From positions 4,165,380 through 4,229,379 of the forward strand of contig NZ_CP088017.1 in NCBI RefSeq assembly GCF_021049285.1: DNA of 64,000 bases, in the 5' to 3' direction. The notes under the pieces were generated by a model. The model worked only from the letters and a program-made list of their open reading frames with translations, did not search any database and was not told the DNA's origin. This stretch comes from Ruania halotolerans. GTDB lineage: Bacteria > Actinomycetota > Actinomycetes > Actinomycetales > Beutenbergiaceae. Of this stretch, positions 61,818-64,000 are shown piece after piece. Every line of letters begins with the position of its first letter. Within the stretch, counting starts at the first letter, position 1. The position numbers were made by a program, and so were the translations under genes.

Positions 61818-61883
61818 TCTGAACCCACTTCTCCTGATCGAACCCCCGACGGCGGGGGTTCAGTCGGGAAAAGTGGGTTCAGA
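61818..61883. repeat. 66-nt palindromic repeat, left copy
   Basis: Outer arms TCTGAACCCACTT / AAGTGGGTTCAGA (13 bp perfect) around an inner perfect 9-bp hairpin GAACCCCCG-ACGG-CGGGGGTTC. A second copy of the same length and orientation (57 of 66 identical) lies at 62971-63036. The rest of the 352-bp gap 61636-61987 holds the rpsF leader and nothing else recognised. Confidence 0.8.
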
Positions 61884-61987
61884 CGGCGACGGGTCGAGAT
61901 TTCCACAGGTCGGACGCCATGAGGCGGTGTCCACACCCCGGGCACCGAGACCACTCGCTGCAGCCGACCTCGGGCTTGACTGCACCG

Positions 61988-62953
61988 ATGGCCCCGCTAC
62001 CTGCCGATCACCACGGACTCATCACCCATGCCAGCGCGGCAGCAACGGGACGCGTCGCACAGCTGGAGGCCGCACATCGAGGCGGTCGCCTGATGCGGAT
62101 CCGGAACGGGGTGTATCGCCACGCTGCCGCCGGCGAACCGGACTCCGCTCCCGCACGTGACCGGCAGCGGTATGAACTCCTCGTGCGTGCGGCCGCGCAC
62201 CGTCAGCGAGCACCGGTATTCACCTCCTACTCGGCCGCCATTCTCATGGGCCTGCCGATCATCGGCCGATGGCCCAGCACGATCTATCGGCTGCGCCCTG
62301 GACCGACCGGTAGGCGCCGCGGAGATGTCATCGACGTGGCGAGCAGGAAACCCATCGAGCCCGTCGCCCACGAGGGTGCGCTCCTCACCCCCATCGAGTT
62401 CACCCTGATCCAACTCGCGCGCCATGCGCCACTGGTCTGCGCACTGGCCGCCTGGGACGCGGCACTGCTCGTGCCGCGGGCACCGGGCGCGGAGCCGATC
62501 ACGACGCCCGATCAGATGGCAGCGGAACATCATCGCCTGCTTCCTTACCACGGCTCCCGGCGAGTTGAGGCGGTGCTCAGCCGGGCGAGTACTGCCTCGG
62601 AGAGCGCACTGGAGACGCTGAGCGGGCTCACGATCGAGGAGCTCGGATTCCCGGCGCCCGAGCGTCAGGCCCACCTCTGGCTTCCCGATCTGCAGACCGA
62701 CGCCTACGTCGACTTCTTCTGGCGTGAGTTCGGGATCGCTGGTGAGGCGGACGGGTATGCCAAGTACGTGGGCGGGGGAGAGGATGCTGCCACCCGAGTC
62801 CTGGAGGAGAAACGCCGCGAGGACGCCATCCGCCGCCAGGTGCACGGATTCGCTCGATGGACGTGGGCGGACGCCTGGCATCGCCGCGGCCTCGAGGTGG
62901 CACTGAGGAGCGCCGGAGTTCCGCAGACACGCGCCCGGCGCCTGCTGCGCTGA
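61988..62953 (+). CDS. AbiEi-like/PD-(D/E)XK nuclease-like protein
   Basis: 321-residue protein. The N-terminal part (about 10-65) resembles the winged helix of AbiEi-type antitoxins, with the common layout of a short HTH, GRLMRIRNGVYRHA (the R-x-x-x-G-v-Y motif) and a following TSYSAAILMGLPI segment. The C-terminal part (about 200-300) has the pattern of a Vsr/DUF559-like restriction fold: SESALETL, DAYVDFFW (Asp242), GEADGYAKY (Glu253, Lys259), EEKRREDAIRRQ and ARWTWADAW. Asp242, Glu253 and Lys259 form a plausible D-ExK site. ATG 61988. No partner toxin gene is adjacent. It interrupts the order of pbp-rpsF, is on the opposite strand to its neighbours, and is bracketed by two 66-nt palindromic repeats. 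Confidence 0.72.
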   Translation: MAPLPADHHGLITHASAAATGRVAQLEAAHRGGRLMRIRNGVYRHAAAGEPDSAPARDRQRYELLVRAAAHRQRAPVFTSYSAAILMGLPIIGRWPSTIYRLRPGPTGRRRGDVIDVASRKPIEPVAHEGALLTPIEFTLIQLARHAPLVCALAAWDAALLVPRAPGAEPITTPDQMAAEHHRLLPYHGSRRVEAVLSRASTASESALETLSGLTIEELGFPAPERQAHLWLPDLQTDAYVDFFWREFGIAGEADGYAKYVGGGEDAATRVLEEKRREDAIRRQVHGFARWTWADAWHRRGLEVALRSAGVPQTRARRLLR

Positions 62954-62970
62954 CCCCATCTCACCGACCG

Positions 62971-63036
62971 TCTGAACCCACTTTTCGTGTGTGAACCCCC
63001 GACGGCGGTTGTTCAGTCGGGGAAACTGGGTTCAGA
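62971..63036. repeat. 66-nt palindromic repeat, right copy
   Basis: Direct-orientation copy of 61818-61883, with 9 substitutions. The outer arms keep 12 of 13 pairs; the inner hairpin has decayed (CGGTTGTTC in place of CGGGGGTTC). It starts 18 bp after the stop codon of the nuclease-like gene. Confidence 0.8.
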
Positions 63037-63064: not shown

Positions 63065-64000
63065 TCAATCCGCGCCGGCGTCGCCATCCGCGCTCGCATC
63101 GGAGCCCGCGTCGGGGTCGCCACCGTCCGAGTCAGCGTCGCCGTCCGGCACACCGTCGACCAGGCCACCATCGGAGTCGTCTGTCGGCGTGGGGCTCGGA
63201 GTCGGAGTCGGGGTGGGTGTGGGAGTGGGCTCCTGCGTGGGTTTCTCAGTGGGTTCTTCCGAGGGCTCCTCGGTCGGCTCCTCGGTGGTCTCCTCCTCGG
63301 TCGGCTCCTCCGACGGCTCTTCGGCGGGCTGCTCCTCCTGTGGTGCGGCCGGCGGCGCGTTCGAGTAGTCGGGTGCAGACCGTTCGGGGAACTCTTCCAC
63401 CGGCAGGTCGGCCACGGCCGCGCTCATGTACTCGGTCCAGATATCGGTGGGGTAACTGCCGCCGGAGATCGGTGCCACACCGCCCCAGCCGTCCACCATC
63501 GAGATCTCCTCACCGTCCTCGCCAATCTGATACATCGCCACCGAGGTGGTGATCTGCGGCACGAAGCCGACGAACCACGCCGATCGGTAGTCGTTCGAGC
63601 TACCCGTCTTGCCCGCTGCTGGTCGGCCGATCTCCGAGGCCGTCGAGCCGGTACCGCCCTGCACCACCTGCTGCATGGCATAGGTGGCATCCGCCATCAC
63701 CTGAGCATCCACCACCTGCTCGCCCTCGCCACCGCCGGTGTAGACCGTCTCGCCGTCGGCGTTGACCGCGGACTCCACGATGAACCGGTCCCGGTGCACC
63801 CCGCCCGTGGCGATCGTCGAGTAGGCCTCGGCCATGTCCGCCGGGTGTGGCGACGCCGGACCGAGCACGTTCGAGGGGAAGGGTTCCAGCCCAGGGGTGT
63901 CCTCGGGCAGGCCCATCCGGTGCGCCACATCCACGAGAGCCTCTGGCCCCGTCTCGGTGTTGAGCTGCATGTAGTAGGTGTTCACCGAGTGCTGCGTCGC
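63065..64000 (-). CDS. ponA: Class A penicillin-binding protein (5' part outside window)
   Basis: C-terminal 311 codons of a bifunctional transglycosylase/transpeptidase that builds cell-wall peptidoglycan. The SxN motif is at the edge (HSVNTYY), and the KTG box is in GRPAAGKTGSSNDYRSAWFVGFVPQI. After the transpeptidase domain comes a long low-complexity tail rich in Glu-Pro-Thr (EEPSEEPTEEETTEEPTEE...TPTPTPTPTPSP) and then an Asp/Gly/Ser-rich end (DADSDGGDPDAGSDASADGD), predicted extracellular. This tail is typical of actinobacterial PBP1. The gene continues past 64000. Confidence 0.92.
   Translation of the reverse strand, partial: ATQHSVNTYYMQLNTETGPEALVDVAHRMGLPEDTPGLEPFPSNVLGPASPHPADMAEAYSTIATGGVHRDRFIVESAVNADGETVYTGGGEGEQVVDAQVMADATYAMQQVVQGGTGSTASEIGRPAAGKTGSSNDYRSAWFVGFVPQITTSVAMYQIGEDGEEISMVDGWGGVAPISGGSYPTDIWTEYMSAAVADLPVEEFPERSAPDYSNAPPAAPQEEQPAEEPSEEPTEEETTEEPTEEPSEEPTEKPTQEPTPTPTPTPTPSPTPTDDSDGGLVDGVPDGDADSDGGDPDAGSDASADGDAGAD

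Follow-up and report, generated by a model that had tools for sequence, protein, structure and literature searches.

What is a gene for a predicted nuclease doing between two copies of the same palindrome? The question is raised by a locus of Ruania halotolerans (assembly GCF_021049285.1, contig NZ_CP088017.1) that lies in a 64,000-nucleotide stretch of the genome (positions 4,165,380 to 4,229,379 of the forward strand), referred to here as the window. Palindromic repeats are common in bacterial genomes, and how they come to spread is still a question. A first-pass annotation of the window, made from the sequence alone, had taken the gene and its two 66-nucleotide (nt) flanking elements for a small cassette, or for a unit resembling repetitive extragenic palindromes (REPs) or miniature inverted-repeat transposable elements (MITEs), with a DNA-acting protein as its cargo; it had proposed searching the genome for the element, comparing occupied and empty sites, and predicting the structure of the protein. 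The analysis presented here finds that a predicted-nuclease gene placed between matching, dispersed palindromes is a general pairing in many actinobacteria. We lean toward reading it as a REPtron-like partnership (REPtrons being genes flanked by palindromes that are also scattered through the genome) between a palindrome-recognising nuclease and its cognate palindromes, formed without the RAYT enzyme that defines REPtrons. Possibly the arrangement represents a self-spreading genetic unit of a new kind.

The two elements of the window (Table 1) are alike at 57 of their 66 bases in direct orientation and at 52 of 66 when one is inverted. The upstream copy contains the words TGAACCC (61820-61826) and CGAACCC (61839-61845), 19 nt apart, with their reverse complements in the other arm, and folds as a DNA hairpin at -27.9 kcal/mol (z -8.7). 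The downstream copy starts 17 nt past the stop codon of the gene and has a weaker inner stem (-16.0 kcal/mol, z -3.5). For neither copy do any of 200 shuffles fold as well. Alignment and folding bear out the earlier description of two hairpin-forming elements in the same orientation, the right one decayed in its inner stem. The gene sits inside a longer frame with a possible start at 61919, and a gene for a penicillin-binding protein (PBP) comes after it in opposite orientation. (A technical note: the names dnaA, rpsF and PBP, as used here, were assigned by eye from the sequences and from the first-pass annotation, with no family search.)

Table 1. Coordinates (window positions) of the gene, its predicted parts and the flanking palindromes
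Feature	Position	Strand	Basis or remark
Upstream palindromic element, 66 nt	61818..61883	.	Hairpin folding; 1 of 26 genomic places
Gene, 321-residue protein	61988..62953	+	Open reading frame, structure model, fold matches, PADLOC
AbiEi-like part (predicted), residues 1-201	about 61988-62590	+	
Vsr/I-Bth0305I-like nuclease part (predicted), residues 206-314	about 62603-62929	+	
Downstream palindromic element, 66 nt	62971..63036	.	Same orientation as upstream; 1 of 26 genomic places
Whole element-gene-element cassette, 1219 nt	61818..63036	.	Missing from the rpsF-PBP gap in 7/7 congeners

Is the arrangement an accident? A DNA search of the R. halotolerans genome (one contig, 4,270,413 bases) finds the 66-nt element at 23 distinct places, and all 23 copies align without gaps over 72 columns. 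Stem pairs changed on both sides account for 33 cells of this alignment, compared with a shuffle mean of 19.5 (0/500 shuffles reach the observed number). A covariance model brings the count to 26 places of the 66-nt kind and adds 5 of a longer, ~82-nt kind; its scan scored 150 of 2031 candidates, and weaker copies may be missing. With 26 genomic places for the element, the arrangement is not a matter of chance; the genome-wide search reveals a dispersed family. By DNA similarity the element has no match in 38 relatives; by covariance model it has matches, at E values up to 0.1, in all 7 congeners, several of them directly downstream of the homologous gene.

The 26 copies adjoin many different genes. 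At 16 of them the 3' end of a gene is at most 25 nt away or inside the element, and at 4 a gene start lies within the same distance; the 3'-end rate for random intergenic positions is 13% if gaps are weighted by length and 38% if they are drawn evenly, and by the latter measure the excess is much weaker. At three places the element's own TGA terminates the adjacent gene. Of the surroundings, as crudely called, 11 are convergent, 9 co-directional and 2 divergent, while 4 copies overlap a gene end. (Another technical note: neighbouring genes were called, here and in the palindrome controls described below, with a crude gene caller of our own. It missed the window gene, and the window's downstream element is consequently counted as lying away from a 3' end, its proximity to the stop codon notwithstanding.) The ends of the 66-nt core carry no tag of the GTAG/CGTC type in the 23-copy alignment. 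A strand preference of the kind expected if the hairpin acted as RNA was sought, and none is claimed (86.8% paired cells on one strand vs 84.5% on the other); membership of a known RNA family was rejected, the 7 Rfam hits being to microRNA families and far below gathering scores. A separate observation concerns location: 21 of the 26 copies lie in the origin-proximal half of the chromosome (p 0.0025), a dnaA-like open reading frame, recognised by eye, being at 255-1799 of the contig and the window gene about 42 kb from the contig start. Such clustering could have arisen by local spread outward from the gene or through a gene-dosage effect.

The pairing is not peculiar to Ruania. Large palindromes of differing sequence adjoin the gene in many of 31 homologues from several families. 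A quantitative comparison was made with the best 80 of 229 relatives, all at named loci. These belong mostly to Microbacteriaceae (Microbacterium, Agromyces, Frigoribacterium, Leifsonia, Labedella), with Ruania, Dietzia and others represented; they form 34 clusters by homologous flanks and are not 80 independent cases. With palindromes scored for stems in which no gaps are allowed, the gene has a palindrome on one or both sides in 69/80 loci at scores of at least 15 and in 50/80 at scores of at least 20. Neighbouring genes at the same loci provide the control: a score of 15 or more is reached by 22/234 on the 3' side and by 5/228 on the 5' side. At scores of 20 or more the comparison is 32/80 loci vs 7/234 neighbours on the 3' side (p 1.6e-15) and 35/78 vs 2/228 on the 5' side (p 7e-22; L130 and L162 have too little upstream DNA to be included). 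Alignment A3 is without eight loci whose frames are broken or partial (L038, L044, L053, L054, L055, L057, L058, L059).

The cassettes have a nearly fixed geometry, with a median span of 1233 nt (5-95% range 1156-1286), the upstream element at a median of 123 nt before the start codon and the downstream element at a median of 4 nt past the stop. Cassettes in other genera show the same leaning toward gene 3' ends, 21 of 33 lying within 40 nt of the stop codon of a neighbour. The neighbours of cassettes are ordinary genes in 4/4 scanned loci with a Pfam match. Thirty-three flanking pairs were compared for orientation: 19 match better as direct and 10 as inverted copies, with 4 tied, and no conclusion is drawn.

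What do these elements of differing sequence have in common? First, they match each other within a locus: wherever clear elements are present on both sides (30/30 loci), the similarity of the flanking copies exceeds the 95th percentile of between-locus pairs. Second, they share a design. Their sequence differs between lineages and their length at other loci ranges from 60 to 90 nt; each arm typically holds one word twice. Where a repeat was scored, its words lie 19 nt apart in 23/32 upstream and 19/25 downstream elements; in 4 and 3 others, respectively, they lie 20 nt apart. The self-match of the arms, averaged over 66 elements (one per locus), is 0.52 at an offset of 19 and at most 0.32 at the other offsets between 8 and 27; 200 shuffles reach no more than 0.35. 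The words themselves vary: TGAACCC in the window and, as recognised by eye, GAGACACC, GAGTCAGACCC, GAGGGCGGGT and others elsewhere.

Variation of the words is found even within one genome. R. halotolerans has two further copies of the gene, 50% and 44% identical to that of the window, making three diverged copies in all. As seen by eye, the first of these paralogues has a GAATCCAC-type element on both sides (four further places in the same genome carry this type, two of them found also by DNA search), and the second has a GGACACA-type element on both sides. The paralogue at 3964976-3965890 (locus L207) has its upstream GGACACA-type element at ~3966000, with an arm of four words 19 nt apart; elements seem capable of gaining or losing whole 19-nt units. 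A nearly identical element (CTTCATTTCTGGCACAT...) is also found across genera at L120 (Microbacterium halophytorum), L124 (Frigoribacterium sp. JB110) and L133 (Microbacterium gubbeenense), although two of the three protein pairs have only about 60-69% identity.

Dispersal of the elements likewise extends beyond Ruania, and all 3 further gene-flanking elements that were searched for it are scattered (3/3). The element belonging to the gene of G031, a genome from another family, has 7 full-length places there, two of which flank the gene, and was not found in 5 other genomes searched. The element of G020 has about 11, 13, 5 and 4 places in G010, G017, G020 and G023, respectively, all of the same genus (partial matches included); it flanks the gene on both sides in the first three of these and was not found in three genomes outside the genus. 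The Microbacterium memoriense element has 8 places in its own genome and 10 and 5 in two other Microbacterium genomes, and was not found in four further genomes searched. G023, a 40-contig draft, presents its four element places with no match to the gene at E 0.001, and is perhaps an instance of an orphaned element family, though the draft may hide a diverged gene.

By prediction, the protein joins an AbiEi-like DNA-binding part to a nuclease resembling Vsr and I-Bth0305I. The AlphaFold2 model, built with 11 relatives, has a mean confidence (predicted local distance difference test, pLDDT) of 90.9. For residues 1-201 the fold match is to the AbiEi antitoxin of Streptococcus agalactiae (Z 10.9, 164 residues aligned, root-mean-square deviation 5.5); for residues 206-314 it is to the catalytic domain of the homing endonuclease I-Bth0305I (Z 9.6, 93 aligned, deviation 2.9), followed by Vsr (Z 7.8) and TnsA (Z 6.4). 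A distant member of the family from Frigoribacterium faeni (pLDDT 82.1) yields the same partners: I-Bth0305I (Z 11.2), AbiEi (Z 10.8) and Vsr (Z 10.1). Structure prediction, as proposed at the outset, accordingly finds a Vsr-type nuclease domain in two family models. The first-pass annotation had singled out D242, E253 and K259 as marks of a nuclease-like C-terminus, and the residues predicted to be catalytic, E209, D242, E253, D255 and K259, are indeed each conserved in 82-83 of 83 relatives (E209 in 83/83, D242 in 82/83; the conservation of E253, D255 and K259, which fall within one of the two search patterns, is partly built in, while E209 and D242 lie outside the patterns). Its assignment of an AbiEi-like N-terminus agrees with the predicted fold; that the AbiEi-like part takes up about two thirds of the protein could not be seen from the sequence alone.

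Sequence searches are less eloquent. The window protein by itself gives 0 hits in Pfam and in NCBIfam, and a profile search of the PDB by sequence likewise gives 0; the protein matches the AbiEi models of PADLOC at E 3.8e-6, and a Pfam scan of 23 members of the family finds AbiEi_4 in 14, DUF559 in 2 and REase_MTES_1575 in 2, with no transposase family. HUH folds are not among the fold matches listed, an absence that alone proves nothing. Which part of the protein goes with the element? Element similarity tracks the AbiEi-like core (residues 51-160) best, and weakly (partial rank r 0.18, p 0.003); the corresponding values are r 0.07 (p 0.06) for the winged helix and r 0.03 (p 0.24) for the nuclease.

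Where has the cassette come from? All 7 congeners yield matches to an 8-kb query that spans the region. These break off at least 47 nt before the first element on the rpsF side and pick up again only past the second on the PBP side. The rpsF-PBP gaps of all 7 congeners were read: neither the gene nor the 66-nt element is inside them, and the homologous genes are at other places in all 7. The site is thus empty in 7/7 congeners, and the break in the rpsF-PBP neighbourhood that had been attributed to the gene is real, the gap being widened in R. halotolerans. In one congener (G002) the gap has, by eye, an apparent decayed element of the GGAATCCAC kind. In the PBP gene, the C-terminal end (63178-63370, minus strand) codes for low-complexity repeats (EEPTEEPS, PTPTPTP) that vary in length and sequence among the congeners. 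Two solo copies of the element were compared with congeners. That at 137677 is missing in the three congeners that can be aligned there (G001, G004, G006), the matching site being a short gap in G006, a different palindrome in G001 and other repeats in G004; for that at 135539 only G006 can be aligned, and it has unrelated direct repeats. Other, unrelated palindromes or direct repeats thus occupy the gaps of G001 and G004 at 137677 and of G006 at 135539, as if such gaps attract repeats.

These findings favour a cassette or REP/MITE-type unit with a DNA-acting protein, as originally proposed: 26 places for the element, an empty site in every congener and a Vsr-type domain in both models. The proposal was to fail if the element adjoined unrelated genes and empty sites were lacking as well; the element does adjoin many different genes, and empty sites exist. 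"Small cassette" is an apt term in that empty sites exist, and a misleading one if it is taken to imply free movement, since close homologues in other genera mostly share their genomic site.

Where a site is shared, the words have changed, yet the upstream copy and the downstream copy still match one another. When genes at the same site in different species are less than 90% identical, the two copies within a locus are more alike than the corresponding copies between species (27/27 pairs); above 90% identity the pattern is the opposite (2/2). This concerted change is the strongest sign that the elements are being actively copied or replaced.

Several observations weigh against a self-spreading partnership. 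1) Among 54 locus pairs with at least 60% protein identity, one flank or more is homologous in 53 and both are in 45. The gene therefore rarely moves; to judge from the flanks, it is mostly inherited at one site and is not a freely hopping transposon. 2) The 29 same-site pairs share loci and are thus not independent. 3) In the distant pairs, independent arrivals at a single preferred site could give the appearance of concerted change; this applies less to pairs of 56-74% identity. 4) No target-site duplication or exact junction is resolved at rpsF-PBP or at the solo sites compared, the gap sequence being too diverged between species, and the insertion boundary of the cassette is not placeable to the base. 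5) At a palindrome score of 25 the 3' excess is small (8/80 loci vs 6/234 neighbouring genes), and at 11/80 loci neither side has a palindrome scoring at least 15. 6) The family has no match in plasmid and phage collections (0 in each), and a plasmid- or phage-borne gene was rejected on that count.

How might such a partnership work? What comparison provides is the pairing, elements with words of their own, their dispersal and concerted change, a two-part fold and an empty site; that proteins of this family bind, cut and copy is inferred from it. The AbiEi-like part would bind the doubled words of its own palindromes, and the Vsr-type part would cut within or next to the element, which could be in duplex, cruciform or single-strand hairpin form. 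Repair of the cut would then overwrite one element with another or set a copy down at a new intergenic site, while the gene would stay mostly where it is and reach new sites, such as rpsF-PBP, only rarely. Copying by cut and repair would account for both the scattered copies and their concerted change. Formulated in full, the proposal is of a second, independently evolved REPtron-like class, in which an AbiEi-Vsr nuclease binds words spaced at 19 nt, cuts, and spreads and homogenises its palindromes through repair; we judge the chances that it holds in this form to be evenly balanced.

Does the protein perhaps do no more than regulate itself? Its AbiEi-like part would bind the upstream palindrome and repress the gene, the downstream palindrome would end transcription, the scattered copies would be a regulon or leftovers, and the nuclease part would act on something else. 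The placement of upstream elements well before the start codon and of downstream elements just past the stop (medians 123 and 4 nt) suits this explanation, as does the tracking of the AbiEi-like core by element similarity. However, the scattered copies prefer the 3' ends of genes to their starts (16/26 vs 4/26), and concerted change of the words needs copying, unless each site follows the changing protein one by one. Autoregulation is an unlikely account of the whole.

A defence or genome-maintenance role, raised as a possibility in the first-pass annotation, gains no support here. A solitary nuclease directed against invading DNA, for which the palindromes would mark or sense what is self and what is foreign, is a good deal less probable than autoregulation. 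Such a nuclease would be in keeping with the PADLOC matches to AbiEi-like models, and Vsr-like nuclease domains are known in conflict systems (MTES_1575; PMC3710099); yet the window gap has no companion defence gene, the neighbours are ordinary genes in 4/4 scanned loci, no plasmid or phage match turned up, and scattered palindromes that change in concert are left unexplained.

We attach comparably little probability, and if anything slightly less, to a conventional insertion sequence in which the nuclease, as a new transposase, moves the whole cassette and the solo elements are its MITE-like derivatives. The near-constant cassette length and the site that is empty in 7/7 congeners are what one would expect of it; only 3 diverged gene copies in the R. 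halotolerans genome, stable sites among close homologues and the absence of any visible target duplication are not. Least credible of all are ordinary terminators or a plain repeat family that happens to lie beside the gene: 11/26 copies are between convergent genes and 16/26 at a gene 3' end, as terminators might be, but coincidence was rejected on the two-sided palindrome excess over neighbouring genes in the same loci, the matching flanks (30/30), the paralogue-specific words and the 19-nt period.

A REPtron-like partnership without RAYT is best placed by setting it beside what is already known. Insertion sequences and MITEs have in common with it a gene between repeats, scattered non-coding copies, and filled and empty sites among relatives (rpsF-PBP in 7/7 congeners, solo site 137677 in 3); the differences from an insertion sequence are that the gene here is not multicopy and that no target-site duplication is resolved. 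TIRtrons also have the gene between repeats and the scattered non-coding copies, and, according to PMC3733652, are built, as REPtrons are, around a tyrosine transposase, which this system is not. The fold of residues 206-314 and its acidic active-site residues are those of I-Bth0305I and Vsr endonuclease, with the difference that here the predicted nuclease is fused to an AbiEi-like part and paired with palindromes. Concerted change fits nuclease-driven copying, without showing it.

The AbiEi fold, with an N-terminal winged helix, is shared (residues 1-201) with the AbiE type IV toxin-antitoxin systems. AbiEi of S. agalactiae binds two 23-bp inverted repeats upstream of its own operon, at its own promoter (PMC3985639). 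Binding to a long inverted repeat upstream of its gene is a likeness; palindromes on both sides of the gene and scattered elsewhere, and a nuclease domain fused to the AbiEi-like part, are differences. An AbiE operon in the window was rejected: no AbiEii-like gene follows on the same strand, the next gene being the oppositely oriented PBP gene (the search for AbiEii covered the window only).

The closest parallel is the REPtron. According to PMC3733652, REPtrons, too, are genes flanked by palindromes that are also scattered (as in the window, G031, G010, G017 and G020); the palindromes are found near gene 3' ends and may supply stop codons; and where several families coexist the genes are repeat-specific. 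The differences are that the enzyme is an AbiEi-Vsr fusion here and an HUH tyrosine transposase of the IS200/IS605 kind there; that the elements are 60-90 nt long with a word doubled at 19 nt, while REPs are 20-40 bp long with GTAG or CGTC tags (same source); and that they occur in tens of copies, with many more in REP-rich genomes. RAYT proteins are the proposed partners of GTAG REPs, and CGTC REPs have no known partner in that account. A RAYT was rejected: the Pfam matches of the 23 members include no transposase family and the two models match AbiEi and Vsr-type folds. The system is not filed as a REPtron because that defining enzyme is missing. Open-access literature, searched with narrow terms, yielded no description of such a gene-palindrome system, which is weak evidence. 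One can, with equal justification, regard it as a variant of the general REPtron-like kind or as a class of its own.

Why should this matter? 1) Here the palindromes have a partner gene that relates to them as RAYT does to REP, and the fold of its product is quite different. 2) Three paralogues and three words in one genome, with words that change in concert at fixed sites, make up a built-in test of specificity. 3) The spread of palindromic repeats becomes testable with one small protein and a 66-nt substrate. 4) A role would be gained for a widespread actinobacterial family that is named in databases only after AbiEi or DUF559. If there is indeed a second REPtron-like class, actinobacterial palindromic repeats gain a dedicated enzyme, and the system that propagates them would be categorically new, with no part homologous to RAYT or REP.
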